This document shows positions 8,794 to 19,679 of a DNA stretch of 20,477 nucleotides, piece by piece. Under the pieces are notes generated by a model. The model worked only from the letters and a program-made list of their open reading frames with translations, made no database searches and was not told the DNA's origin. Made by a program: the position numbers and the translations under genes. How positions within the stretch are numbered: the first letter of the stretch is position 1; every line of letters starts with the position of its first letter. The DNA is from a virus: positions 1 through 20,477 of the IMG/VR virus record IMGVR_UViG_3300025853_000856. One strand, 5' to 3'.

Positions 8794-9210
8794 TTACTTT
8801 TGATTATGTGTTCGATGTTCTAATTTAGTTTCCCAGTTTTCTATAGCTTTACGAATACTTTCTTCAGCTAACACGCTACAATGTAGTTTGATTGGTGGTA
8901 AATCTAAAGCTGCAGCAATATCTTTATCTTTAATAGCTTTAGCTTCAGTTATGGTTTTACCTTTTAACATATCAACAAACATTGTACTCGAAGCAATGGC
9001 AGAGCCACAACCATAAGTTTTAAACTTAACATCTGCTATTATATCATTGTCAAGTTTTAATTGTAACTTCATTACATCCCCACAAGCCGGAGCACCAGTC
9101 ATACCAGTAGCAACATTAGGGTCATTAGGGTCAAACCGACCAACAGCATGTTTCTGTGGATTATTTAACACACTTTCAAATCTATCAACTACTTCTTGTG
9201 AGTATGCCAT
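8794..9210 (-). CDS. iscU: IscU/NifU-type iron-sulfur cluster scaffold protein
   Basis: A 138-residue protein aligned by eye along the full length of bacterial IscU: GAPACGDVMKLQ, FKTYGCGSAIASS and LPPIKLHCSVLAE are all present. The three cluster-ligand cysteines are C43, C68 and C111, with D45 and H110 also kept, and LPPIK (104-108) matches the HscA-chaperone recognition motif LPPVK. In bacteria this protein receives sulfur from IscS and builds [2Fe-2S] clusters for transfer to target proteins. It lies among packaging genes between terS and terL, packed end to end with neighbours, so it is expressed late with virion genes. All functional residues are intact, so it is likely active. N-terminus carries a small insertion (LNNPQKHAVG) against E. 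coli IscU. Confidence 0.95.
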   Translation of the reverse strand: MAYSQEVVDRFESVLNNPQKHAVGRFDPNDPNVATGMTGAPACGDVMKLQLKLDNDIIADVKFKTYGCGSAIASSTMFVDMLKGKTITEAKAIKDKDIAAALDLPPIKLHCSVLAEESIRKAIENWETKLEHRTHNQK

Positions 9211-10714: not shown

Positions 10715-11393
10715 ATTATATAATTAGTGTTAGAAAACATATAGAGCTTTATAAAGTTTAGGGCAACTGGTTAATACTTAAACTAGGTTGAAATGTATGA
10801 GTTTTATATATATACCGGGTACGCCCCCCTGTACATCCTGCCCCCCCTTATAACTAAACTTCAAAAACTTTCCAAGCTTTATAACCTTTAGGAATAAGGA
10901 TTTTCCTATCACACTTTACAAAGTTTTGCAAGTGAGTTATGTGAAATCTTTGTGAACTTTATAAAACCTTTGAAAAGTACTTGACAAGCTTTATAAAGTG
11001 TGTATCTGGTTAACGGAATATTGGAAACCTTGTAAAGTTTATGAAGTTTACTTTTCAACACTTTATAATGGGCTATGGCTATTTCCAATACCTTATAATA
11101 ATGTATAGCTCACTTCACAAGCTTTGAAAGAGTTACCGGGTAAAACTCACTTCACAAGCTTTGAAAGTGTTTAAACTGTCCGAGCTAAATAGAGCCGTTC
11201 TAAGAGCCGATTTATATTTCTGAGGGTTTACTATCAAAAAAACTTTTTCAGGCGTTCTGTGAATGTCAAGAACTTTATAAGCTTTATAACTTTTTAATCT
11301 AAGGTTATTTAGATTTACTAATTTTTTAATTTTTTGATTGTGCTTTCAAAACCTATGGTTTAAACTTGTTTCCATAATTTACGGAGTTTTACT
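10715..11393. repeat. Gene-free control region rich in CTTTATAA repeats; possible replication origin
   Basis: There is no convincing gene in these 679 bases. CTTTATAA or close variants recur at about 10747, 10877, 10957, 10989, 11061, 11272 and 11282, several as GCTTTATAAAG or in AAGCTTTATAA context, along with many AAGTTTA/AAGCTTTGAAA relatives. Two C tracts of 6 and 7 bases lie at 10824-10829 and 10841-10847, only 11 bases apart. A TTGACA box at 10981 lacks a good -10. Iteron-like repeats in an AT-rich gap between divergent operons suggest an origin or binding sites for a phage regulator. A gene-start ribosome site, TTTACGGAGT, ends the region. Confidence 0.6.
11109..11167. repeat. Perfect 22-bp direct repeat pair
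   Basis: Identical 22-bp units at 11109-11130 and 11146-11167, starting CTCACTTCACAAG and ending CTTTGAAAG, 37 bp apart. Each unit includes AAGCTTT, related to the shorter repeats around. An exact pair of this length in a non-coding gap is unlikely by chance and suggests protein-binding sites. Confidence 0.85.
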
Positions 11394-11624
11394 ATGGCTA
11401 CAAACAAAATGAAAATCAAAGCACTTAAAGAGTCTATACTGATTCTTAAAACTGATTTAAGAATGGCATCAAAGTCATTTGATAAAGATGTTGAAAGAAT
11501 GGAAAAAGATTCAAGCAAGGAAAATATTGATAGAGTTCAAAATAGAATCTATGCTGTCCTTAGGGTTGGGGGAGAAATAGAAGAACTAAAAAAAGAATTA
11601 AAATTATTACAGGGGGGTAAATAA
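11394..11624 (+). CDS. Small coiled-coil protein, 76 aa
   Basis: First gene of the right arm. Starts MATNKMKIKALKESILILKT and ends EIEELKKELKLLQGGK; entirely helical and Lys/Glu-rich with leucine heptads, so a coiled coil is likely. Ribosome site ACGGAGT eight bases before the ATG. Function unknown. It is followed by the next gene after one base; both begin MAT, with ATGGCTACA in each. Confidence 0.75.
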   Translation: MATNKMKIKALKESILILKTDLRMASKSFDKDVERMEKDSSKENIDRVQNRIYAVLRVGGEIEELKKELKLLQGGK

Positions 11625-11625
11625 T

Positions 11626-11946
11626 ATGGCTACAATCAATAAACTAAAATATGATGCTAGAGAATTTGACGTTCTCAAAAACAACGGGTATTTCATTGTT
11701 ATGCATAAAGCGACTGGAACTATTGACAGATTCAAAGTCAGAGCCGGAAATCATAACGAGGAAATGAGATTGACTTTCCAAGGTTTCATAAACTTAGAAA
11801 AAGTTAGACGTGAAAACAACATTGGTCAAGCTATAGACGGTCAGAACAATATCAAAGCACAGGAAAGACAGAACCAAATTACAGCAAAGGTTAAACGTTC
11901 AATGGTGCATAATTGTGACGGGAACTTAGTTAGAAACGGAGGTTAA
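11626..11946 (+). CDS. Hypothetical protein, 106 aa
   Basis: Starts MATINKLKYDAREFDVLKNN and includes GYFIVMHKATGTIDRFKVRA, a beta-rich segment, then a helical, Asn/Gln/Lys-rich tail with one Cys. Ribosome site GGGGGG in the preceding gene end. Not recognised; the mild basic charge could suit nucleic-acid binding. It sits in a run of early, small genes. Confidence 0.75.
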   Translation: MATINKLKYDAREFDVLKNNGYFIVMHKATGTIDRFKVRAGNHNEEMRLTFQGFINLEKVRRENNIGQAIDGQNNIKAQERQNQITAKVKRSMVHNCDGNLVRNGG

Positions 11947-11948
11947 GA

Positions 11949-12086
11949 ATGACTGATTACGAAAAAATTGAATGGGTACATAGTCAAATATCTGAACTAA
12001 AAGACGGATTCGAGGTTGATTTAGAAACTATGCAACATTTTATAGAGGACATAAGAGAAAAATTTATTAAAAAGGAGGTGGAATAA
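11949..12086 (+). CDS. Small acidic helical protein, 45 aa
   Basis: MTDYEKIEWVHSQISELKDG, then FEVDLETMQHFIEDIREKFI, ending KKEVE. The ribosome site ACGGAGGTT precedes the ATG, two bases after the upstream stop. Helical and acidic. Its end shares a 30-bp repeat with the end of the gene finishing at 12487. Not recognised. Confidence 0.7.
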   Translation: MTDYEKIEWVHSQISELKDGFEVDLETMQHFIEDIREKFIKKEVE

Positions 12087-12106
12087 GCATATAACAAAAA
12101 GTTAGG
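12077..12106 (+). repeat. 30-bp repeat, copy 1, across a stop codon
   Basis: GGTGGAATAAGC, then ATATAACAAAAAGTTAGG, spanning the last codons of the 45-residue gene and the following gap. Copy 2 at 12478-12507 differs at one base. The core ATAACAAAAAGTTA is close to the palindrome ATAACTAAAAGTTAT in the three promoters further right, so it may be the same regulator's binding site, though no TATAAT lies at the same distance here. Confidence 0.75.
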
Positions 12107-12161
12107 TTTTGAGATTTTCCTTAAAAAAATCTATAAACTTAAAAATAAATAAAAGGAAATT

Positions 12162-12320
12162 ATGGAATCATCAACAGATAAAAAAATCGGCAGAGATAAA
12201 GCAAAAACTTACGGCAGAACTACTGGTGGCTATACTCCTAAATTTGCTAAACTTTCTAAAAGAAGGGGGAGCAAAGGAGCAAGGAGAGTTGCCAAACAAA
12301 ATATAAAGGGGGAACTTTAA
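12162..12320 (+). CDS. Small basic protein, 52 aa
   Basis: MESSTDKKIGRDKAKTYGRT, then TGGYTPKFAKLSKRRGSKGA, ending RRVAKQNIKGEL. Ribosome site AAAAGGAAATT. A competing frame at 12109-12306 lacks a ribosome site and was discarded. The Arg/Lys/Gly-rich middle suggests nucleic-acid binding; similar small basic proteins occur in marine phages. Function unknown. Confidence 0.68.
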   Translation: MESSTDKKIGRDKAKTYGRTTGGYTPKFAKLSKRRGSKGARRVAKQNIKGEL

Positions 12321-12322
12321 AA

Positions 12323-12487
12323 ATGTATCAAGTAAAAACAACATATAAAAAACGTGGGATTAGAAAAGATAAATACTATAGAGTCTTTAACAATAAAACG
12401 GGGGAAGTAATCAAAGACTATATACAGGAAAGAGTTGCAATCGCTGTCAGTAAGAATTTAAATCAAGCATTGCAGGGGGTGGAATAA
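12323..12487 (+). CDS. Small hypothetical protein, 54 aa
   Basis: MYQVKTTYKKRGIRKDKYYR, then VFNNKTGEVIKDYIQERVAI, ending NLNQALQGVE. The ribosome site AAAGGGGGAAC lies in the end of the preceding gene, two bases separate the genes. Basic N-terminal strand segment followed by a helix. Its last codons are part of the second 30-bp repeat. Not recognised. Confidence 0.68.
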   Translation: MYQVKTTYKKRGIRKDKYYRVFNNKTGEVIKDYIQERVAIAVSKNLNQALQGVE

Positions 12488-12507
12488 GCTTATAACAAAA
12501 AGTTAGG
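12478..12507 (+). repeat. 30-bp repeat, copy 2, across a stop codon
   Basis: Same as 12077-12106 except for one base (GCTTAT instead of GCATAT). Both copies begin in the final Val-Glu codons of unrelated genes and run into the gap before the next gene, so the repeat follows gene ends rather than coding sequence. It may mark a duplicated or recombining boundary. Confidence 0.75.
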
Positions 12508-12564
12508 AAGTATGGACTAACTTTAAAAAACCTGTACACTTAACAAACTTAACAAGGAGCATTT

Positions 12565-13179
12565 ATGCAGAACTTAATGATACAAAATAAACTTTTCAAC
12601 GGCACACGTGAGGAGTATTTACAAAAGGCAAAAGACGAACTTAATGACAGAGTGTTTAAACAAGCTGGTTATAAAATCCCAGACGTAAAAATCTCTTGCT
12701 CATGGGCACTAGGTACGGCTGATAAAAACAAGACAACTTTAGGACAATGCTTTCCTAGAAGTTGGAGCAAAGCAGACATCAATGAAATTATGATTATGCC
12801 GACAGTTGACGATAGCGAACAAGCCATCGACATTTTAGCCCATGAATTAGTCCACGCTGTAGACAATAACAAAAGTGGACATGGTGCAGGGTTTAGAAAA
12901 ATATGTCTGGCAGTAGGTTTAAACGGCTCAAGTCAAATGAGACATGCTTGTGCCGGAGATGAGTTAAAGCAGACTATAGCAGAGATTGTAAAAGATATTG
13001 GACTGTATCCTCACAGTGAATTACAAATTCACAAACGCAAGAAACAAAGTACCAGAATGATAAAAGTATCTTGCACCGAGTGTGAGTTTTCATACAGAAC
13101 AAGCAGAAAAAACATTGAGAGTATGACTAATTATACTTGCAATGGTTGTGGAGAAGAACACGCCTTAATCGTTGAGTGA
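12565..13179 (+). CDS. SprT-like zinc metalloprotein with C-terminal zinc ribbon
   Basis: A 204-residue protein. HELVH at 93-97 is the HExxH zinc-protease signature, with H106 (GHGAGF) as the likely third ligand; the order strand, ILAHELVHAVDNNKSGHGAG, is that of SprT/Spartan-type proteins. A zinc ribbon follows: C170/C173 (SCTEC) and C192/C195 (TCNGC). Spartan enzymes remove protein-DNA crosslinks; phage members are of unknown target. In a phage early region it could protect replicating DNA or attack a host protein. Ribosome site AACAAGGAGCATTT is strong. Family clear, biological role inferred. Confidence 0.88.
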   Translation: MQNLMIQNKLFNGTREEYLQKAKDELNDRVFKQAGYKIPDVKISCSWALGTADKNKTTLGQCFPRSWSKADINEIMIMPTVDDSEQAIDILAHELVHAVDNNKSGHGAGFRKICLAVGLNGSSQMRHACAGDELKQTIAEIVKDIGLYPHSELQIHKRKKQSTRMIKVSCTECEFSYRTSRKNIESMTNYTCNGCGEEHALIVE

Positions 13180-13186
13180 AGGTAAA

Positions 13187-13241
13187 AGGTTATGCCCTGT
13201 CACCTATAAAAGTACAGGGCGTTTAAACGGAGTATAAAATT
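13187..13241 (+). promoter_or_regulatory. Pseudoknot leader, copy L1
   Basis: AGGU 13187-13190; stem GCCCTGT (13194-13200) pairs with ACAGGGC (13214-13220); ACCU 13202-13205 lies in the loop and can pair with AGGU to make an H-type pseudoknot; A-rich linker 13206-13213. Then GTTTAAACGGAGTATAAA and the ATG at 13242. The ribosome site GGAG is 9 bases from the start. Three further copies have entirely different stem sequence but the same pairing. Confidence 0.85.
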
Positions 13242-13613
13242 ATGAGAATAAATGGTATGGAAATAGAAGGATATGAAAGTATCGTTGCTAATCTTGATGT
13301 CATTAATGATGAAATAAGACCTATAAATTGCAAGGAAAATTTCTCATGTGATAAAGGTGTATGGTATCAGTTTTACTTTGATAACTTACTTGTGACTGTT
13401 ATCATGATGCATCGTTCTACTTGTGGTGGAACTGCTGGTTTATTTGAAATAGGTATCAGAGATAAAGATACTAATGAGTGGTTAGTAGATAATCCTTATA
13501 TAAACAGCTCTGGTCATGGAGTTGAAGGTTGGAAAACTTACAATGAAATTCAAAGAATTTTAAAAAGAATGCTCGTAGATACTATGAGAAAAATTAGAGA
13601 GGAAAATAAATAA
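13242..13613 (+). CDS. Hypothetical protein, 123 aa, with pseudoknot leader
   Basis: Starts MRINGMEIEGYESIVANLDV. Contains a beta-rich centre with KGVWYQFYFDNLLVTVIMMH and TCGGTAGLFEIGIRDKDTNE, then a helical, charged end (QRILKRMLVDTMRKIREENK). Cysteines at about 30, 35 and 61. I do not recognise the family. It is the first gene after a pseudoknot leader and is followed by ardA, which carries the same leader, so both are probably controlled alike. Confidence 0.82.
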   Translation: MRINGMEIEGYESIVANLDVINDEIRPINCKENFSCDKGVWYQFYFDNLLVTVIMMHRSTCGGTAGLFEIGIRDKDTNEWLVDNPYINSSGHGVEGWKTYNEIQRILKRMLVDTMRKIREENK

Positions 13614-13625
13614 AACAATTGGAGA

Positions 13626-13681
13626 AGGTTAACTCTCTTACCTAATTATAAAATAGAGAGTGTTTAAACGGAGTATAAATT
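13626..13681 (+). promoter_or_regulatory. Pseudoknot leader, copy L2, ahead of ardA
   Basis: AGGU 13626-13629; stem ACTCTCT (13632-13638) with AGAGAGT (13655-13661); ACCU 13640-13643; linker AATTATAAAAT 13644-13654. Then GTTTAAACGGAGTATAAAT, with the ATG at 13682. Every stem pair differs from L1 or is compensated, while AGGU, ACCU and the 3' block are unchanged. Confidence 0.87.
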
Positions 13682-14188
13682 ATGACAATAAAAATATATG
13701 TAGCTTCTTTAGAAGCATATAATCAGGGTAGAATGGTTGGAGATTGGATAACTCCCACAGATTATCTAAGCTTTGAAAAGTTTAATAATGCTATTGAAGT
13801 CGCTACTGAATACGCTGATGAAGTAGCAGTACATGACTATGACGGCATTAATTTAAGTAATGAGTATCCAGACTTTAAAGAGCTTTATTATTTTTGCCAA
13901 GCTATAGAAGATAGTTGGGTAGATGATGAAGTTATCCTAGCTTACGCAGAATATACTGGAGAAGAATTAGATAATGAATTAATAGCTAAAGCAGAAGAAA
14001 ATTTTGTAGGTACTTTCAGTAGCTTTCAAGAATATGCAGACGATTATGCAAATAAAATCTTATTAAGTAATGCAGACGATTTTATCAAAGGTTATTTTGA
14101 TTACGAGAGCCATGCTAGAGATTTAGAATATGATTACATGATATGTGATGTATCAGATTATAACGTAGCAATTTTCAGTAATTGTTAA
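13682..14188 (+). CDS. ardA: Antirestriction protein ArdA
   Basis: A 168-residue very acidic protein with ArdA landmarks: IYVASLEAYNQGRMVGDWI at the start, AVHDYDG, an acidic helical centre (AYTGEELDNELIAKAEENF), then FVGTFSSFQEYADDYAN and YFDYESHARDLEYDY. ArdA is a DNA mimic that binds type I restriction-modification enzymes and stops them cutting. Length matches the family (about 160-170). It has the pseudoknot leader L2. In a phage this would protect incoming DNA, so early expression is expected. Family assignment is by conserved patterns; activity against particular enzymes is not known. Confidence 0.9.
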   Translation: MTIKIYVASLEAYNQGRMVGDWITPTDYLSFEKFNNAIEVATEYADEVAVHDYDGINLSNEYPDFKELYYFCQAIEDSWVDDEVILAYAEYTGEELDNELIAKAEENFVGTFSSFQEYADDYANKILLSNADDFIKGYFDYESHARDLEYDYMICDVSDYNVAIFSNC

Positions 14189-14189
14189 G

Positions 14190-14212
14190 ACTGTTTAAAC
14201 GGAGTGAAAATT
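14190..14212 (+). promoter_or_regulatory. Shortened leader, copy L5 (3' block only)
   Basis: TGTTTAAACGGAGTGAAAAT directly before the ATG at 14213, preceded by TTAAGAC. The AGGU/ACCU elements and the 7-bp stem are missing; only a weak CAGT/ACTG pairing (4 bp) with the end of ardA is possible. It keeps the ribosome site block, so the 3' part can occur without the pseudoknot. Confidence 0.72.
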
Positions 14213-14317
14213 ATGAGAGATTGGATAGTACAAAACAAAGACTTTATTTTAATTATGTCGGTAGCTTTACCAGTACCGATATTTTTTATAATAGCAATGC
14301 ATATAGCAGGAGTATAA
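14213..14317 (+). CDS. Small membrane protein, 34 aa
   Basis: MRDWIVQNKDFILIMSVALP, then VPIFFIIAMHIAGV. One hydrophobic span covers about residues 11-31. It is preceded by the 3' leader block with GGAG. Its last codons and stop (GCAGGAGTATAA) form the ribosome site of the next gene, which reuses the leader-like AGGAGTATAAATT sequence. Too short for family recognition; could be a membrane-active accessory peptide. Confidence 0.6.
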   Translation: MRDWIVQNKDFILIMSVALPVPIFFIIAMHIAGV

Positions 14318-14320
14318 ATT

Positions 14321-14644
14321 ATGACAATAACAAAAGATAACATTAAACTTGAGGGCGAGGGGTTTTTACCTCACGATACTAGAAACTATCGAGCTTATTT
14401 TGAGCATGATATTAACTTTATTTTTAGTAAAGATAAGTTAGTAGCAGTGATAAAAGAGGTTGAAATTAATGGTGCATTTGTGGACTACTTTAACAGCTTT
14501 TATTTCTTTACTGACGAGGATATTATTCCTTATCATGTAAGATTAGCAAAGAAAGATTTAAGAGGAAAAATTAGTAAGTCAACTAAAAACTTTGATAAGA
14601 AAGTTAAAAAGCTTTTGAAGAAAGAAAAGCTTTGGAAAAATTAA
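14321..14644 (+). CDS. Hypothetical protein, 107 aa
   Basis: Starts MTITKDNIKLEGEGFLPHDT. The N-terminal two thirds are beta-rich with many aromatic residues (YFEHDINFIFSKDKLVAVI; DYFNSFYFFTDED), and the C-terminal third is a strongly basic helix (KNFDKKVKKLLKKEKLWKN). The ribosome site AGGAGTATAAATT is shared with the preceding gene end; the start MTI resembles that of ardA, MTIKI, and the flanking bases match. Family not recognised. Confidence 0.75.
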   Translation: MTITKDNIKLEGEGFLPHDTRNYRAYFEHDINFIFSKDKLVAVIKEVEINGAFVDYFNSFYFFTDEDIIPYHVRLAKKDLRGKISKSTKNFDKKVKKLLKKEKLWKN

Positions 14645-14669
14645 AGACTGTTTAAACGGAGTATAAATT
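14645..14669 (+). promoter_or_regulatory. Leader remnant without a gene, copy L6
   Basis: AGACTGTTTAAACGGAGT, then ATAAATTAT and ATAAC. Where other copies have ATG this one has ATA followed at once by TAA. It lacks the hairpin. Its 5' neighbour (TTAAAGACTG) matches L5 (TTAAGACTG). It abuts promoter P1, so a protein gene once led by it may have been lost or replaced by the non-coding RNA. Confidence 0.7.
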
Positions 14670-14670
14670 A

Positions 14671-14725
14671 TATAACTAAAAGTTATATACTTATTCCACA
14701 CAAACAGTAAAAAGTTTGATATAAT
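14671..14725 (+). promoter_or_regulatory. Palindrome-containing promoter P1
   Basis: TATAACTAAAAGTTATATAC at 14671, then TGATATAAT, an extended -10 box with TATAAT at 14720-14725. From TATAAC to TATAAT is 49 bases, the same as in P2 and P3. There is no good -35 box, so the palindrome ATAACTAAAAGTTAT, centred about 43 bases ahead of the -10, is a likely activator or operator site. It drives the long structured non-coding segment. Confidence 0.8.
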
Positions 14726-14731
14726 TATTAC

Positions 14732-15218
14732 ATAACTATGAGGCAATGCTTCATAGAAAAACCACGGGAAGTTATGTGAAAAATATTCGATGACCCTGAG
14801 AGATGACTGTAGCGAAGCCTCGCAAAAGGTGGATAGTTTCTAACCAAGATACTCAGGATAATGAAGACACCTCTAGTCTAGTTGCAAGACCGAAAGGCGA
14901 TATAAGACTTCCGATTAGTCTACAACATGTAGCGTTTAAACGACATGGCTTGGGCTTCGGTGGGCGTGATACCTAAATTAAATAAGTGGGTATCGGGTGT
15001 AAAGTTAGCAGGACTTGAAACCACCTTGAAAGCGTATAAGAAACTGCTACTCTTCGAGAGTTAAATAGATTAGATTAATAGTCTAGTGAAAGGAGAGTGT
15101 AATGGCATACCAACATTGCACGTAGGAAACAAGAGCGTAGTGGCTCAAACTCGAAACTCTTAGTAGCACGAAGCCAATCAAAGAAGCTGAGATATTTATT
15201 TAACTCTTGATTTGTTTT
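14732..15218 (+). ncRNA. Large structured non-coding RNA candidate (RNA-A, ~490 nt)
   Basis: No gene with a ribosome site is present. Strong pairings: CTATGAGGC/GCTTCATAG (14736-14744 with 14748-14756) at the very 5' end; CCTGAG/CTCAGG (14795-14800 with 14852-14857) enclosing GCGA/TCGC; GATACCTA/TGGGTATC (14968-14975 with 14987-14994); and a 14-bp helix between 15054-15067 and 15197-15210, followed directly by TTTGTTTT, a probable 3' end. The segment is more GC-rich than its surroundings and has many GNRA/UNCG-type loops such as CCGAAAGG and CTTCGG. It resembles large ornate phage RNAs or possibly a group I intron remnant (AAGATACTC after pairing), but I do not recognise its class. Confidence 0.7.
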
Positions 15219-15272
15219 ATAACTATAAGCTATATACTTATACTACAAAAAGAATTTAAACTATGTTATAAT
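15218..15272 (+). promoter_or_regulatory. Palindrome-containing promoter P2
   Basis: TATAACTATAAGCTATATAC at 15218, TATGTTATAAT with TATAAT at 15267-15272, 49 bases apart. From the palindrome to beyond the -10 box it is nearly identical to P3 (CTACAAAAAGAATTTAAAC shared), while P1 shares the layout but less sequence. TGTTATAAT is an extended -10. It begins directly after the U tract of RNA-A. Confidence 0.85.
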
Positions 15273-15283
15273 AGTTATAATAA

Positions 15284-15433
15284 AGTTAAGGAAAGGCATG
15301 ATAATACCATGCTGAAAGAAGCGAGAAGAAGCGTATTTTAAATCTAGATTTTTAATACAAAAGAGTTCGAGTAAGATGAGGCACAATTTGTGTAAGCTTT
15401 TTAATAACACAAATGCTGATTCCTTTCCTTGAC
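15284..15433 (+). ncRNA. Structured non-coding RNA candidate (RNA-B, ~150 nt)
   Basis: A 12-bp closing helix joins 15285-15296 and 15422-15433 (AAGGAAAGG with CCTTTCCTT at its core). Inside are three hairpins: GCATG/CATGC (15296-15300 with 15308-15312), GTATT/AATAC with an inner AAATC/GATTT (15333-15358), and ATTTGTGT/ACACAAAT (15386-15393 with 15407-15414). It starts about 12 bases after promoter P2 and ends ten bases before leader L3, so it could be the 5' part of the mRNA for the 107-residue gene or a separate RNA. No gene is visible in it. Confidence 0.7.
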
Positions 15434-15443
15434 GATATTAAAA

Positions 15444-15502
15444 AGGTTTAGTTCTCTTACCTAATTATAAAACAGAGAACGTTTAAACGGAGTATAAATA
15501 AA
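15444..15502 (+). promoter_or_regulatory. Pseudoknot leader, copy L3
   Basis: AGGU 15444-15447; stem GTTCTCT (15451-15457) with AGAGAAC (15474-15480); ACCU 15459-15462; linker AATTATAAAAC 15463-15473. Then GTTTAAACGGAGTATAAAT and the ATG at 15503. The loop is the same as in L2, while three stem positions differ with both strands changed. Confidence 0.87.
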
Positions 15503-15826
15503 ATGAGTAGAGATATTACAGAGCAGATAGATGATATTTGCAGAGAAGAATGTGGACATACTACTTGGGCATTTACTGATACTCTTTCTGAAAAAGAACT
15601 AGAAGAAATAAAAAATAAAAACACTGGTATTATATTACCTAGTATTGTTTTTTATTATGATGAGTTTAAAGGAATGGGTTTTGATGATATTTGTCTTGAT
15701 AAATATGGACATACTTCTTGGGTTAGATTAGACAATTTATCTGACCAAGAAAAAGTAGGATTAGATGAAGTAGCTGAAATACAAACTATTAATGGTGTAC
15801 AAGTTGCTTTCTATTTTGAAAGATAA
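15503..15826 (+). CDS. Hypothetical protein with an internal duplication, 107 aa
   Basis: Residues 9-52 and 60-105 are two versions of the same unit: DDICREECGHTTW with TLSEKELEEI and later IVFYY, against DDICLDKYGHTSW with NLSDQEKVGL and later VAFYF. The shared core is DDIC....GHT(T/S)W...D.LS. The whole protein is acidic. Family not recognised. It is translated under the pseudoknot leader L3 and lies behind promoter P2 and RNA-B. A DNA-mimic or inhibitor role would fit the acidity and neighbourhood but is inference. Confidence 0.8.
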   Translation: MSRDITEQIDDICREECGHTTWAFTDTLSEKELEEIKNKNTGIILPSIVFYYDEFKGMGFDDICLDKYGHTSWVRLDNLSDQEKVGLDEVAEIQTINGVQVAFYFER

Positions 15827-15847
15827 AAAAGAATTCAATAATTTTTA

Positions 15848-15954
15848 AAATGTCTGGGTGTTAATAACTTATATCAGAAGTCAGACATTTAAAAATCGGT
15901 AGCAATTAATTCACGGGATTGCTTTAAATCTGAACTGTTAATTATCAGAGCCGA
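15848..15954 (+). ncRNA. Structured non-coding segment (RNA-C)
   Basis: A 9-bp hairpin AAATGTCTG/CAGACATTT (15848-15856 with 15882-15890) is followed by a three-way junction: TCGG (15896-15899) closes with CCGA (15951-15954), around hairpins AGCAAT/ATTGCT (15901-15906 with 15918-15923) and TCTGA/TCAGA (15929-15933 with 15945-15949). It sits between the 107-residue gene and promoter P3 and so would be the 3' end of the P2 transcript. No U tract follows, so it is not a simple terminator; a stability or processing element, or a separate RNA, is possible. Confidence 0.6.
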
Positions 15955-15961
15955 CAGATTT

Positions 15962-16016
15962 TATAACTAAAAGTTATATGCTTATGCTACAAAAAGAATT
16001 TAAACTATGTTATAAT
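15962..16016 (+). promoter_or_regulatory. Palindrome-containing promoter P3
   Basis: TATAACTAAAAGTTATATGC at 15962 and TATAAT at 16011-16016, again 49 bases apart, in TATGTTATAAT. Nearly identical to P2 over its downstream 35 bases. It is followed at once by leader L4 and the operon starting at 16077. Confidence 0.85.
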
Positions 16017-16025
16017 AGTTTCAAT

Positions 16026-16076
16026 AGGTCAAGCCTTGCTACCTATTTAAAAGCAAGGCGTTTAAACGGAGTATGA
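16026..16076 (+). promoter_or_regulatory. Pseudoknot leader, copy L4
   Basis: AGGU 16026-16029; stem GCCTTGC (16033-16039) with GCAAGGC (16053-16059); ACCU 16041-16044; linker ATTTAAAA 16045-16052. Then GTTTAAACGGAGTATGA and ATG at 16077. Transcription from P3 would begin at about 16023, so the RNA would start almost exactly with the pseudoknot. Confidence 0.87.
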
Positions 16077-16322
16077 ATGAAACAAATAATAGCCAACTTT
16101 TTAAGAAAGTTAATTAAACTTGATGACTATATTGACGATAGAGTCTTATCTGAAATAGAAAGACTTGAAAGAGAAATAGAAGAGATAAGAGATTTAGCTA
16201 ACTCAAATGAGTATGAACTAAATGACAGACCTAACTTCTATGATATGGAAAGCCAAGTAGAAGAGCTAGTCAATGATAGCATGGCAGATGTCTATGAAAG
16301 AATAGAGGCACTGGAGGAATAA
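16077..16322 (+). CDS. Small coiled-coil protein, 81 aa
   Basis: MKQIIANFLRKLIKLDDYID, then a long coiled coil around SEIERLEREIEEIRDLANSN and an acidic helical end. An ATG four bases upstream would give only a 14-residue peptide, so the ATG at 16077 is used although GGAG is then only five bases away. First gene of the P3 operon. The N-terminal 15 residues are basic and amphipathic. Not recognised. Confidence 0.75.
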   Translation: MKQIIANFLRKLIKLDDYIDDRVLSEIERLEREIEEIRDLANSNEYELNDRPNFYDMESQVEELVNDSMADVYERIEALEE

Positions 16323-16324
16323 TA

Positions 16325-16513
16325 ATGGAACAAGAACTAAGTAATACTCTCTACCAGTATATGAAGAAGGAACACTTAGATTTAGAAAATGAATTAAGTG
16401 ATGATGAGTGGGAAAATTTTCTTGATAAATACCAAGATGATTTTGCAAATAGCTGTAGCGAACTTGCCTATGAATTATTTGCAGAGTATTTAATCGAAGA
16501 GGAGAAACAATGA
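16325..16513 (+). CDS. Small acidic protein, 62 aa
   Basis: MEQELSNTLYQYMKKEHLDL, with ELSDDEWENFLDKYQDDFAN and ending EYLIEEEKQ. About 20 acidic against about 5 basic residues, helical. Ribosome site GGAGGAATAATA, two bases after the upstream stop; ends in an ATGA overlap with the next gene. Not recognised; strong acidity recalls DNA-mimic proteins. Confidence 0.74.
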   Translation: MEQELSNTLYQYMKKEHLDLENELSDDEWENFLDKYQDDFANSCSELAYELFAEYLIEEEKQ

Positions 16514-16695
16514 AACTATATCAAATTTATTACATAAATTCTTATGGCGAAAAAGAATTTGTTGCTATTACAGATAACCCTGATGAGTGGTTAAAAGAAA
16601 ATAATGAACAAAGGATTGGCGATGGAAACGAGCCAGAGGATTTAGATGACTTTGAAATATACGAAGAACAAGATGTATGGATTTATAATAAGTAA
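16510..16695 (+). CDS. Small acidic protein, 61 aa
   Basis: MKLYQIYYINSYGEKEFVAI, then TDNPDEWLKENNEQ and DLDDFEIYEEQDVWIYNK. An aromatic-rich beta start and acidic tail form a small alpha-beta pattern found in phage proteins of unknown role. The ATGA overlap and the ribosome site GAAGAGGAGAAACA decide the start. Confidence 0.74.
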   Translation: MKLYQIYYINSYGEKEFVAITDNPDEWLKENNEQRIGDGNEPEDLDDFEIYEEQDVWIYNK

Positions 16696-16706
16696 GGAGG
16701 AATAAT

Positions 16707-16892
16707 ATGAGCCACGAAGTAAATGACAGAGTAAGAGAAGATGTTTGGGAAGAAGTACAACAAATGTCTTTAGAAGAAGTAAGAGAATTCTTATTGAGTA
16801 ATTTACATTCTCAAGAAGAAGTATCAAGACTTAACGAGGTTGAATTGCGAGAAGCAGTTGCCGAAGATATGTTTAATTTAAGAGGTGTTTAA
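16707..16892 (+). CDS. Small acidic helical protein, 61 aa
   Basis: MSHEVNDRVREDVWEEVQQM, SLEEVREFLLSNLHSQEEVS, ending EDMFNLRGV. Helical, Glu-rich. Ribosome site AAGGAGGAATAAT. The codons for its last residues form GTGTTTAAAC, a GTTTAAAC copy inside a gene end. Not recognised. Confidence 0.72.
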   Translation: MSHEVNDRVREDVWEEVQQMSLEEVREFLLSNLHSQEEVSRLNEVELREAVAEDMFNLRGV

Positions 16893-16907
16893 ACACTAGG
16901 AGGAACT

Positions 16908-17090
16908 ATGAAGAAATATGTATTTGAAATAACTTACGAAGTAGTTGAAGAAGTAGTTGTTGAAGCAGATGACTATGAAGAAGCAGAAGTAAAATTAGAA
17001 GAGGGTAGAGGAGAAATCTTAAGTGAAGATAAATACGACTGGGATTTTACATGTACAAAAATGCCTGACGAAAATGAGGAGGAAGCATGA
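16908..17090 (+). CDS. Small acidic protein, 60 aa (DpnD/PcfM-like pattern)
   Basis: MKKYVFEITYEVVEEVVVEA, DDYEEAEVKLEEGRGEILSE, then KYDWDFTCTKMPDENEEEA. Two strands followed by an Asp/Glu-rich helix resemble the short DpnD/PcfM-type domain found in mobile elements, an assignment I hold only loosely. Ribosome site CTAGGAGGAACT. ATGA overlap with the next gene. Confidence 0.72.
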   Translation: MKKYVFEITYEVVEEVVVEADDYEEAEVKLEEGRGEILSEDKYDWDFTCTKMPDENEEEA

Positions 17091-17206
17091 ATAAATATAA
17101 TAAAGTATTTGTTAGTCTTAATGAGCTTGAGTTAGAAGAACTCAAACAAATTAAAAAAGATGTTGATGAATTTATAAAAGATAAGGAGAAAGTAAATGGA
17201 AGTTAA
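17087..17206 (+). CDS. Small helical protein, 39 aa
   Basis: MNKYNKVFVSLNELELEELK, ending QIKKDVDEFIKDKEKVNGS. Ribosome site GAGGAGGAAGC, ATGA overlap with the upstream gene. Amphipathic helix, no recognised domain. Confidence 0.65.
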   Translation: MNKYNKVFVSLNELELEELKQIKKDVDEFIKDKEKVNGS

Positions 17207-17251
17207 GATAATATCACAGAAGATAACAGAACTTAGGAGGAGATATGAGTA
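17195..17251 (+). CDS. Possible 18-aa peptide bridging two genes
   Basis: MEVKIISQKITELRRRYE begins inside the end of the preceding gene and ends inside the start of the next, each in another frame. A good ribosome site (AAGGAGAAAGTAA) lies eight bases ahead of the ATG, and the AGGAGGAG within its coding part serves the next gene. It may be a true micro-gene or only a coupling device; length gives no statistical support. Confidence 0.35.
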
Positions 17252-17454
17252 AAGATATTGGCGAACAATTTGCCATGATGAATGAGGTGTCGGCTAAGAT
17301 TTCTCAGAAAACTTTTGACAAGTTTGTTGCAGAAGCAATGGCTGAGTTTAAACAAGACCATGACACTGACAAGGTAAGTGGATTAAAAGTATATGAATTT
17401 ATAACAGACAAAATTGCTGAGATAATTGATATGCACTATGACGGAGAACTATAA
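17245..17454 (+). CDS. Hypothetical helical protein, 69 aa
   Basis: MSKDIGEQFAMMNEVSAKIS, QKTFDKFVAEAMAEFKQDHD, ending EIIDMHYDGEL. Helical, slightly acidic, with Phe/Met faces. Ribosome site TTAGGAGGAGAT. Its stop overlaps the next start (TAATG). Not recognised. Confidence 0.73.
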   Translation: MSKDIGEQFAMMNEVSAKISQKTFDKFVAEAMAEFKQDHDTDKVSGLKVYEFITDKIAEIIDMHYDGEL

Positions 17455-17678
17455 TGTCGTGGGTATTGATAGCGTTTTTTAGCATACCAACAACAGCAGT
17501 TGTATTGGAAGATGTACATGTCTTTGAATATCTTTTCAAGACTGAAAAAGATTGTGAAAACTTTTATGTTGAAAATCGTATGGGATTGAAACGAGTAATC
17601 AGAGAAGAGTACAAAGCATTACCAACATCATTTGTGTGTGTAGATGCTGATAGAATTTTGAATTCATTGAACAATTAA
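17454..17678 (+). CDS. Putative exported or membrane-anchored protein, 74 aa
   Basis: MSWVLIAFFSIPTTAVVLED at the N-terminus looks like a signal peptide or membrane anchor, though it lacks a basic head. The rest holds two cysteines in EKDCENFYVENR and SFVCVDADRI that could form a disulfide in the periplasm. Small exported phage proteins with this KxxCxxFxxxN...FxCVxAD layout are common in marine phages. Last gene of the P3 operon; TAATG overlap. Function unknown. Confidence 0.73.
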   Translation: MSWVLIAFFSIPTTAVVLEDVHVFEYLFKTEKDCENFYVENRMGLKRVIREEYKALPTSFVCVDADRILNSLNN

Positions 17679-17704
17679 TTTAAGACAGTGTTAACTAGAG
17701 AACA

Positions 17705-17783
17705 TAGGGCAGGTCATAAATATAATTATCGTCTGTTAGAGGGCTTGTATGGAAGCGACAGAGGTATTTTATTTCTTGCCCTA
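17705..17783 (+). ncRNA. Hairpin-rich segment after the P3 operon, terminator or small RNA
   Basis: TAGGGCAGG (17705-17713) pairs with CTTGCCCTA (17775-17783), nine pairs with one G-U, enclosing an inner TCTGT/ACAGA stem (17732-17736 with 17758-17762). The 3' side continues ACCTAGTTTT, a poor U tract. It could end the P3 transcript imperfectly or be an independent structured element. No gene in it. Confidence 0.5.
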
Positions 17784-17948
17784 ACCTAGTTTTAATACAT
17801 ACTAATTTAATAATTAATATAAAAATAAATTTGACACTAACAAAAAAACATGATATAATCTTTATAAATTTTATAAATATATTATAATAAATATTATTAT
17901 AAATACTTTATAAAGCTTTATAATACTATAATAATAAGGAGGTAAAGT
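17784..17948 (+). other. Extremely AT-rich gap
   Basis: From about 17790 to 17935 nearly all bases are A or T apart from the promoter. It includes CTTTATAAAGCTTTATAAT near 17910-17928, the same motif as the repeats in the 10.7-11.4 kb region, and many TTATAA/AATAAT runs. It may be an easily melted segment, a promoter with strong upstream elements, or a second target of the protein that binds CTTTATAA. No gene. Confidence 0.6.
17831..17859 (+). promoter_or_regulatory. Consensus sigma70 promoter
   Basis: TTGACA (17831-17836), 17-bp spacer, TATAAT (17854-17859), preceded by TGA to give an extended -10. It is the closest match to consensus in the right arm and differs from P1-P3 by having a good -35 box and no palindrome. 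It should drive the operon from 17949 to beyond the right edge; the leader would be about 80 bases and almost purely A/T. Confidence 0.92.
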
Positions 17949-18143
17949 ATGAGGGAAGCAACAAGACAATTTTTAAAAGTAGTTAGTTTGTTATCTGATG
18001 AACAGATGGATGAACTTCAAGAAAACTTAAAAGCCTTAAGTTGTGATGGCACTAAAAGAGTTGAGCAAGATGTTCAATTTGATATGGCATTACAAATGTT
18101 GACAAGTAATTTTATTAAATCAGATAGTACGGAGGTGCAGTAA
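17949..18143 (+). CDS. Small helical protein, 64 aa
   Basis: MREATRQFLKVVSLLSDEQM, DELQENLKALSCDGTKRVEQ, then DVQFDMALQMLTSNFIKSDS. Helical and mildly acidic with one Cys. Ribosome site AAGGAGGTAAAGT. First gene of the last operon. Not recognised. Confidence 0.74.
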   Translation: MREATRQFLKVVSLLSDEQMDELQENLKALSCDGTKRVEQDVQFDMALQMLTSNFIKSDSTEVQ

Positions 18144-18144
18144 A

Positions 18145-18273
18145 ATGATTGAACAAATAGTAGACATATTAGATAAGTATGCTGTAGAAGATTTTGATGA
18201 TTTGTTAATTCAAATTGTTATGACTATAGCAGAACAAAGAAAAATCAGAATGGAGGAAGAGGAAGATGATTGA
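18145..18273 (+). CDS. Small acidic helical protein, 42 aa
   Basis: MIEQIVDILDKYAVEDFDDL, LIQIVMTIAEQRKIRMEEEE, DD. Ribosome site CGGAGGTGCAGTAAA. It overlaps the next gene by eight bases, and the last codons (GAGGAAGAGGAAGAT) serve as that gene's ribosome site. Two hydrophobic-faced helices suggest self-association. Not recognised. Confidence 0.68.
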   Translation: MIEQIVDILDKYAVEDFDDLLIQIVMTIAEQRKIRMEEEEDD

Positions 18274-18601
18274 AGATAAAGTTGAAATCATAAGAGATTG
18301 GTTTATCCCATGGATTTTTGAAGAGTATGACGAAGATGATATGCAGGAAGTATGGGAAAGTGAAGAAAGTATAGAAGACTGTGCTTTAGGTATAGCAGGT
18401 TTGTTCCCGATAAATCATATTAATAATTGGAAAGATGTAAAACATCATTGGGATAACGAGCCTTGTGATGAAGAACAAAAAACTTTCTTAACTGATAAAG
18501 GTTTCGATAAATGGACAGACTATTACGAAGATGACGGCTATGTTGAACACATACCTGATACTTTAGAAGTTAAGTGGATACAATCAGAGGAGGTAGCATG
18601 A
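18266..18601 (+). CDS. Hypothetical acidic protein, 111 aa
   Basis: MIEDKVEIIRDWFIPWIFEE, with YDEDDMQEVWESEESIEDCA, INHINNWKDVKHHWDNEPCD and TYxEDDGYVEHIP-like end. Very rich in Asp, Glu and Trp (seven Trp). The combination of acidity and aromatic residues is like DNA-mimic or host-takeover proteins, but the family is unknown to me. Both it and the gene at 18598 begin MIEDK with nearly identical DNA, suggesting duplication of the start. Confidence 0.76.
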   Translation: MIEDKVEIIRDWFIPWIFEEYDEDDMQEVWESEESIEDCALGIAGLFPINHINNWKDVKHHWDNEPCDEEQKTFLTDKGFDKWTDYYEDDGYVEHIPDTLEVKWIQSEEVA

Positions 18602-18783
18602 TTGAAGATAAAGAAAAAATTATAGAAGAAGAAGTAAGAGAAACTGAACATTGTGTAGAAGTTTCGGGCGAATTGTATGTTATGGCAGAAAATAAAAAAG
18701 ATGCCGAACGATATGTTCGAGAACAACTTTATGACGGACGCTTTGTTAATGATTTAGAAATAGTAGGACACGATAATGATTAA
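18598..18783 (+). CDS. Hypothetical protein, 61 aa
   Basis: MIEDKEKIIEEEVRETEHCV, EVSGELYVMAENKKDAERYV, then REQLYDGRFVNDLEIVGHDN. The ATG at 18598 is chosen over a GTG eight codons upstream because it has the ribosome site GAGGAGGTAGC and ATGA overlap. The pattern strand-helix-strand (ELYVMAENKKDAERYVREQL) is like the short family at 16908. Function unknown. Confidence 0.74.
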   Translation: MIEDKEKIIEEEVRETEHCVEVSGELYVMAENKKDAERYVREQLYDGRFVNDLEIVGHDND

Positions 18784-18895
18784 GGATAATGAAAGAATAA
18801 AAACATTTGACGAGATAGTTGATGAGTGGTATGACCAAGCACCAATTATAGATTTAGATTCAGATTCTTTTGAGGTTTACAGACATGACGTTTAA
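18776..18895 (+). CDS. Small acidic protein, 39 aa
   Basis: MIKDNERIKTFDEIVDEWYD, ending QAPIIDLDSDSFEVYRHDV. Overlaps the preceding gene by eight and the next by eleven bases. Ribosome site GTAGGACACGATA. Its stop lies in a GTTTAAAC. Not recognised. Confidence 0.62.
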   Translation: MIKDNERIKTFDEIVDEWYDQAPIIDLDSDSFEVYRHDV

Positions 18896-19037
18896 ACAGT
18901 TTGCCAAAGATATGTACTACGAAAATAGAAATGAACGTAGAGAGTATGGCGAAAAACTTTACGATACTTTTGAGGAGTATCTAGAAACTAATAAAAGTTT
19001 TTTAATGGAGGCATACAGAGAATACTATGGCAGTTAA
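18885..19037 (+). CDS. Small hypothetical protein, 50 aa
   Basis: MTFKQFAKDMYYENRNERRE, YGEKLYDTFEEYLETNKSFL, ending MEAYREYYGS. Helical, Tyr- and Glu-rich. Ribosome site TTGAGGTTTACAG. Overlaps both neighbours in other frames. Not recognised. Confidence 0.65.
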   Translation: MTFKQFAKDMYYENRNERREYGEKLYDTFEEYLETNKSFLMEAYREYYGS

Positions 19038-19185
19038 AAGAGAAGTAGGTTTAATCAAGCACGTAAAGAAAGCAACTTCACAAGGTTTGGCAGGGCGTGG
19101 TAGAAAGGTTAAGCAATCTACCAAGCACCTGAATAAACATAAAAGGTTGCAGAGTAAAGTTAGATACAGAGGACAAGGCAGATGA
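19027..19185 (+). CDS. Small basic protein, 52 aa
   Basis: MAVKREVGLIKHVKKATSQG, LAGRGRKVKQSTKHLNKHKR, ending LQSKVRYRGQGR. Strongly basic, the exception in this acidic operon; nucleic-acid binding is plausible. It overlaps the preceding gene end by eleven bases and the next gene as ATGA. The ribosome site is weak, so coupling is likely. Confidence 0.66.
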   Translation: MAVKREVGLIKHVKKATSQGLAGRGRKVKQSTKHLNKHKRLQSKVRYRGQGR

Positions 19186-19313
19186 TAGAACTATTGATAG
19201 TGTTATTAGTTTTTATTGGCAGTACCACGTTTGTTTTGTTTGGTTTGTCTGGTGGCTTTGAAAAAACTTTTAGTAGAAAAAAGAAATCAGATAAAGAACA
19301 AGGTGGCTGGTAG
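19182..19313 (+). CDS. Small membrane protein, 43 aa
   Basis: MIELLIVLLVFIGSTTFVLF is a single membrane span, followed by GLSGGFEKTFSRKKKSDKEQ, a basic tail, and GGW. ATGA overlap with the previous gene and ribosome site ACAAGGCAG. The tail should be cytoplasmic by the positive-inside rule. Unknown role. Confidence 0.66.
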   Translation: MIELLIVLLVFIGSTTFVLFGLSGGFEKTFSRKKKSDKEQGGW

Positions 19314-19648
19314 TGGCACAAGTGCATGAAATGATTTACATGCTAATGACCAATGGCGAGTACATCTATGGAACTAATTTAGATATTGGCAGGTATAGTG
19401 TGAAACACAACTGCGAATGTCAACGTGAGTTTGACCATGTACCACCATGCAAGTTAGAAGGACAAGGAGGATACTCAGAGGGCTCAAAAGCATTTAAGTA
19501 TGTAGGTAAAGACCATGACCCAATGACACATTCACATCCACCAAGCAGAGAAGAACTGCACACTGATGCATGGGGTAAAAAAGTTTTTAAAAAAACAAAT
19601 GGTTGGGATTATGAAACCGGTAAGTTTCATTACACAGAAAAATGGTAA
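19313..19648 (+). CDS. Hypothetical Cys/His-rich protein, 111 aa
   Basis: Starts with GTG at 19313, which overlaps the previous stop as TAGTG; an ATG six codons on is an alternative (MIYMLMTNGEYIYGTNLDIG). HNCECQREFDHVPPCKLEGQ followed by KDHDPMTHSHPPSREELHTD carries three Cys and seven His within about 50 residues, which suggests a metal site. The last part is beta-rich (GWDYETGKFHYTEKW). Family not recognised. Confidence 0.72.
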   Translation: MAQVHEMIYMLMTNGEYIYGTNLDIGRYSVKHNCECQREFDHVPPCKLEGQGGYSEGSKAFKYVGKDHDPMTHSHPPSREELHTDAWGKKVFKKTNGWDYETGKFHYTEKW

Positions 19649-19679
19649 TAAATATAACAACGTTTAAACAGGAGGAAGA

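Follow-up and report, generated by a model that had tools for sequence, protein, structure and literature searches.

Four leaders in the genome of an uncultured phage, each preceding a different small gene, are built on the same plan, and the question that arises is whether this plan corresponds to a folded RNA and what such an RNA could do for genes that are unrelated to each other. The window (the whole stretch of DNA that was analysed) is a 20.5-kb IMG/VR virus record whose terminase, with around 64% identity, groups it with the cultured pelagiphages HTVC115P, HTVC103P and HTVC104P; at the DNA level, the match to HTVC103P is restricted to a piece of the portal gene. In the left half of the window the genes are structural and on the minus strand; in the right half they are small, early and on the plus strand, and the four leaders are located in this early region, around a SprT-like gene and ardA. 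Within each of them AGGU is followed by 2-3 nt, a 7-bp strand, 1 nt, ACCU, an A-rich stretch of 8-11 nt and a second 7-bp strand, the first loop being of 3 nt in copies 1, 3 and 4 and of 2 nt in copy 2. The first-pass annotation had recognised leaders at 13187-13220, 13626-13661, 15444-15480 and 16026-16059, and indeed at all four places the strands of stem 2 are perfectly complementary. It had also proposed that they head several genes including ardA; copy 2 does head ardA, whereas the other three head small genes without a name. The features are the following:

13187..13220, plus strand: pseudoknot 1; stem 1 AGGU 13187-13190 / ACCU 13202-13205; stem 2 GCCCUGU 13194-13200 / ACAGGGC 13214-13220; third loop AUAAAAGU (sequence, descriptor)
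13221..13241, plus strand: GTTTAAAC palindrome, SD GGAG (13229-13232) and spacer to ATG 13242
13242..13613, plus strand: 123-aa gene of unknown function behind knot 1
13626..13661, plus strand: pseudoknot 2; stem 1 AGGU 13626-13629 / ACCU 13640-13643; stem 2 ACUCUCU 13632-13638 / AGAGAGU 13655-13661 (sequence, descriptor, covariance model)
13662..13681, plus strand: GTTTAAAC palindrome and SD GGAG before ATG 13682
13682..14188, plus strand: ArdA antirestriction gene behind knot 2 (Pfam ArdA, E=4.9e-22)
15444..15480, plus strand: pseudoknot 3; stem 1 AGGU/ACCU; stem 2 GUUCUCU/AGAGAAC; third loop AAUUAUAAAAC (sequence, descriptor, covariance model)
15481..15502, plus strand: GTTTAAAC palindrome and SD GGAG before ATG 15503
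15503..15826, plus strand: 107-aa gene of unknown function behind knot 3
15963..16022, plus strand: promoter-like repeat, ATAACTaaAAGTTAT box and then TATAAT; third of three similar copies, the others starting at 14672 and 15219
16026..16059, plus strand: pseudoknot 4; stem 1 AGGU/ACCU; stem 2 GCCUUGC/GCAAGGC (sequence, descriptor, covariance model)
16060..16076, plus strand: GTTTAAAC palindrome and SD GGAG before ATG 16077
16077..16322, plus strand: 81-aa gene of unknown function behind knot 4

Pseudoknot 1 scores 40.5 bits with model R1, and the 123-aa gene behind it has no Pfam or PHROG match. Some of the stems can be extended: stem 1 of knot 4 up to 7 bp (AAUAGGU/ACCUAUU), and stem 2 up to 8 bp in several copies through pairing of the single linker base.

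When AT-rich DNA is searched freely for perfect two-stem knots, several chance matches per 20 kb are obtained, so the stems alone are weak evidence. However, of the 3,356 distinct ORF leaders from the window and related contigs, 27 carry the perfect knot, whereas Markov-shuffled leaders give 0-4 (mean 2.2). After removal of duplicates, scans of IMG/VR for further contigs left 22 distinct copies in around 17 records, all of them from one loose group of uncultured phages, and the independent changes are fewer than the rows. Among their 243 stem cells there are no mispairs and 4 G-U pairs, with 14 stem-2 sequences and three stem-1 types, pairing being partly a search criterion for this set. Two copies, more distant, are weaker outliers (L304, with AGGU/ACCU, and L331, with AGGC/GCCU); that they are true copies is probable, not certain, and their covariance-model scores are optimistic because both belong to the training set.

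As pairing had been part of some searches, leaders were also chosen by stem 2 alone, and stem 1 was complementary in 21 of 23 cases here, against 2 of 25 in other contigs. One of the latter two is L331. The covariation score is 0.574, compared with 0.198 (sd 0.026) for shuffled alignments and 0.10-0.23 for slid partners, in an alignment where MAFFT misplaces some rows, namely those with other loop lengths. When stem-2 partners are swapped between copies, pairing drops from 125 of 126 to 77 on average, with a maximum of 101. The changes can be seen directly at the orthologous site that follows the SprT-like gene (L269, L270 and L405): stem 2 takes the forms GCCCUGU/ACAGGGC, GCCCUGU/GCAGGGC, GCCCUGC/GCAGGGC and GCCCUAC/GUAGGGC, in which U-A becomes C-G with a U-G intermediate, and G-C becomes A-U.

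Regarding stem 1, AGGU and ACCU had been described as invariant, which is correct inside the window but not elsewhere, where GGGU/ACCC and, in one distant copy, AGGC/GCCU are also found. The GGGU/ACCC knots of L147, L156, L185 and L369 keep the same or nearly the same loops as window copy 3 (UUA, U and AAUUAUAAAA), and both of their stems are different; the covariation of stem 1 comes from this one GGGU lineage (three distinct sequences) and the distant AGGC copy. The loops, by the geometry known for such folds, are long enough to span the grooves, with 2-4 nt over 6-8 bp in the first and 7-11 nt over 4 bp in the third. On these comparisons it is well supported that the leader RNA is an H-type pseudoknot in which both stems, in interleaved order, covary. 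The compensatory changes that the first-pass annotation had read from four leaders are thereby extended to the further homologues it looked to as a check, and to them is added the covariation of stem 1, which could not have been revealed by the four copies of the window.

That annotation did not recognise the class, and the Rfam search agrees: no family reaches its gathering score in the whole window or in two sub-regions, and just chance-level matches of other families appear between 13000 and 16300 at E<=10. A leader knot of this kind was not found described in the literature searched, within a search of limited scope. The preQ1-I and SAM-II riboswitches have the H-type strand order with an A-rich third loop. 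A metabolite riboswitch of that topology would thus agree with the strand order and with loops that are conserved while stem 2 varies. However, there is no Rfam match to the preQ1-I or SAM-II families, the SD is outside the 3' strand of stem 2, the downstream genes are unrelated small phage genes (including ardA) with no shared metabolic genes among them, and minor-groove packing alone can explain the conservation of the loops, so that such a riboswitch is very unlikely.

Among cultured pelagiphages, an AGGU/ACCU copy was not found in HTVC103P and HTVC115P (whole genomes) or in the first 14 kb of HTVC104P, HTVC033P and HMO-2011; HTVC115P has one weak AGGA/UCCU candidate at 2786, not clearly above chance. 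With the region and one leader as queries, neither megablast nor blastn gave a leader match in cultured phages, the start region and the neighbouring RNA had no match in bacterial or archaeal genomes, and pattern scans of IMG/VR for other stem 1 variants yielded known groups and chance matches only.

The GTTTAAAC palindrome requires separate consideration, since in many leaders it directly follows the 3' side of stem 2 and adjoins the SD, and for this reason it seemed to be part of the element. Where 1.15 occurrences of this 8-mer would be expected in the window there are 17, and the relatives with a knot that were tested show a similar enrichment; HTVC103P, HTVC115P and the first 14 kb of HMO-2011 do not. 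It is found within genes and between them, mainly in the early half of the genomes, 108 distinct sites share the extended dyad A-N3-Y-GTTTAAAC-R-N3-T, and the GGGU knots have no GTTTAAAC behind them. It is, then, a palindrome of its own, spread genome-wide and separate from the knot, and it looks like a repeated DNA site. The stoperators of cluster A mycobacteriophages (mentioned in PMC3203893) are alike for GTTTAAAC only, as repeated sites scattered over the genome, but they are asymmetric whereas GTTTAAAC is palindromic. Pairing of the leaders with the GUUUAAAC loop of a neighbouring non-coding RNA was also considered, and is weakened by the scattering of GTTTAAAC in genes and by its DNA-like extended dyad. 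The first-pass annotation had included the start region GTTTAAACGGAG in the element. Of its six occurrences in the window, two (14193 and 14650) have no knot, and this, together with the independence of GTTTAAAC and the knots that exist without it, makes that part of the claim partly wrong. Several leaders with GTTTAAACGGAG but no knot nevertheless precede genes (the one at 14193 in the window, and those of ardA in L174, L261 and L267), which indicates that the knot is not needed for initiation as such.

The proximity of this palindrome to most copies, and the dyad that AGGT and ACCT themselves form on DNA, would fit an operator of the type put forward for ESAS (see below), with AGGT-N10-12-ACCT as the inverted repeat that a dimeric DNA-binding protein recognises. 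Nevertheless, stem 2 pairs with 14 different sequences, which is needless in a DNA operator and already disfavours it, the dyad spacing varies by 2 bp, and every copy is found on the coding strand, with its distance to the AUG fixed; a DNA-level operator is accordingly held to be most improbable.

With respect to position, the 3' end of the knot is 15-22 nt before the AUG in all copies, and its start is 9-15 nt after TATAAT or 6-19 nt past the previous stop codon, with the exception of window copy 3 and the two outliers. Six distinct copies are of the first kind, with no upstream gene, and 13 of the 22 are intercistronic. Knot 4 begins 9 nt after the TATAAT of its promoter-like repeat, which is predicted to put it at the 5' end of its transcript; no TTGACA-type -35 hexamer was found with this repeat, whose first copy (start 14672) is conserved in relatives. 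In window copy 3 around 150 nt of other sequence separate the promoter-like repeat from the knot, and in L137 and L267 the same knot comes immediately after a TATAAT box. The genes that follow are unrelated and swappable: ardA is found in different phages behind the GCCCUGU knot, the ACUCUCU knot or no knot.

Several roles can be weighed against this arrangement. Nested folds of the window leaders leave the SD mostly unpaired with stem 2 formed, and sequestration of the SD by the knot is not seen in them. A frameshift or readthrough stimulator is not a general explanation, given the six copies without an upstream gene. The closeness of the intercistronic copies to stop codons would suit a knot that insulates the previous cistron, blocking sliding 70S ribosomes, coupling or readthrough, and does not act on its own gene, but the copies right behind a TATAAT box have no cistron to insulate and this role is quite unlikely. 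In these same six copies the knot falls within the first bases of the predicted transcript, as it would if it capped the 5' end of primary or processed transcripts and blocked 5'-end-dependent RNase E or 5'-3' exonuclease decay, and copy 4 is able to pair its terminal nucleotides. Compact knots with A-rich loops are mechanical roadblocks, which also speaks for stabilisation of the mRNA. On the other hand, a processing cut must be assumed for the 13 intercistronic copies, and the spacing to the AUG is held even though stabilisation does not require it; this explanation is considered unlikely, if less so than insulation.

What can be read from the sequences is covariation in both stems, a constant AUG spacing, two genomic contexts and unrelated, swappable genes; that the knot acts on translation is what we infer. 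Translation initiation is favoured because the distance to the AUG is constant while the distance to everything upstream is variable, and in this respect the spacing favours it within the 'translational control or processing element' that had been suggested earlier, itself still inferential. Two points count against the translational reading: leaders without a knot also precede genes, and a stable fold at the 5' end would be expected just as much of an mRNA stabiliser. With slightly better than even confidence, it is proposed that the knot serves as a portable module of the leader and acts at translation initiation, where it sets how well its gene is initiated independently of the upstream gene. 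The leader RNA would fold into a 4-bp stem 1 and a 6-8-bp stem 2; one loop, of 2-4 nt, would cross stem 2, and another, A-rich and of 7-11 nt, would probably lie in the minor groove where stem 1 has its G-C core. The 5' part of the leader would be taken by the knot, which usually comes immediately behind the previous stop codon or the start of the transcript; the SD, where present, would be left open about 0-10 nt downstream, and the 3' end of the knot would be near the 5' edge of the 30S footprint. The knot may set the initiation level by itself, as a barrier or insulator, or via a bound phage or host factor, as an operator. Since one fold is shared over several genes, a common factor is plausible; no regulator gene was identified. 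A more tentative and rather doubtful extension is a phage-wide regulon, in which one trans-acting phage factor would bind the shared pseudoknot and switch the translation of many early anti-host genes, including ardA, together.

The known system most similar in kind is the gene 32 operator of T4-type phages. The operator of T4, T2 and RB69 (PMC3014915) and the present leaders are alike in being phage leader RNAs with a two-stem H-type pseudoknot and an A+U-rich stretch from knot to start. However, the gene 32 operator serves the autoregulation of one gene (SSB) and has its knot in a region 67 nt ahead of the start, with repeats of UUAA(A) as far as the RBS (PMC3014915), whereas the present knot heads several unrelated genes at 15-22 nt. 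The SSB leaders of six relatives (L137, L146, L264, L266, L267 and L269) have no AGGU-class knot, and for this reason and that of distance, identity with the T4-type operator was rejected. In L264 and L266 the one knot-like match of the SSB leader is CAAG/CUUG, and it is located upstream of the TATAAT box. The nearest in layout is the SAS/ESAS of cluster K mycobacteriophages, where a short repeated SD-containing sequence precedes many early genes of different families and about half of the SAS carry an extra repeat pair just upstream (ESAS); RNA pairing of the ESAS repeats had little support and the authors favoured DNA sites (PMC3203893). The upstream part here is, by contrast, an RNA pseudoknot with covariation. 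The 13-bp SAS GGGATAGGAGCCC, with up to 2 mismatches, is absent from the window and from the 45.9-kb relative G008, and as the ESAS repeats were not found to covary as RNA, this system was also rejected.

Pseudoknots in the 5' leaders of phage genes have rarely been described, and a 2010 review considered the gene 32 knot as possibly the sole viral pseudoknot used in translational autoregulation. Here one compact knot is reused ahead of several early genes that are unrelated to each other, in relatives of cultured SAR11 phages, and, to judge from sequence, it probably controls the translation of the early genes that it heads. The RNA is small and testable, its two stems can be mutated independently, and it would define an RNA family not listed in Rfam; if the regulon were true, it would constitute a multi-gene pseudoknot operator system in ocean phages.

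Comparison with relatives showed that, between 12500 and 16900, small early genes have been exchanged in the manner of cassettes between conserved start regions. At 14650-14690, a GTTTAAACGGAGTATAAATTAT start region stands with no gene behind it. In the related IMG/VR contigs L137, L267 and L268, such a start region is followed by a 120-aa gene, located just ahead of the same candidate RNA that occupies 14729-15068 in the window, and because these relatives have the gene there, it seems from this comparison to have been lost from the window. Further features of the window, among them a gene located in the structural half, are the following:

14672, 15219 and 15963: a promoter-like repeat in three similar copies, in which TATAAT is preceded by an ATAACT..AGTTAT/AGCTAT box
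14729-15068: non-coding RNA candidate, about 340 nt, downstream of a promoter-like repeat
14922-14945: hairpin inside this candidate, with a covarying stem and a loop presenting GUUUAAAC
15284-15443: structured insert between a promoter-like repeat and knot 3, a leader pseudoknot (fold z -2.75)
8794-9210, minus strand: NifU/IscU-like iron-sulphur scaffold gene (Pfam NifU_N, E=1.5e-38)

The first of the promoter-like repeats is kept in relatives. The candidate RNA, for which no match was found in Rfam, is conserved at about 91-96% in L137, L267, L261 and L269 and at 82% in L276, and among six sequences both sides have changed at 14 of the 118 consensus pairs. Its hairpin stem occurs as CAUGU..ACAUG and CGUGU..ACACG, and the loop palindrome is identical to that of the leaders, which lie ahead of early genes. 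The insert ahead of knot 3 is closed by AAGGAAAGG/CCUUUCCUU, and no long match to it was found in the relatives.

The GTTTAAAC palindrome is present 17 times in the whole window (about one expected), mainly at 11169-19662, in genes and leaders alike. An extended dyad is common to 108 sites from the window and its relatives, and this palindrome is probably an operator or stoperator-like DNA site.
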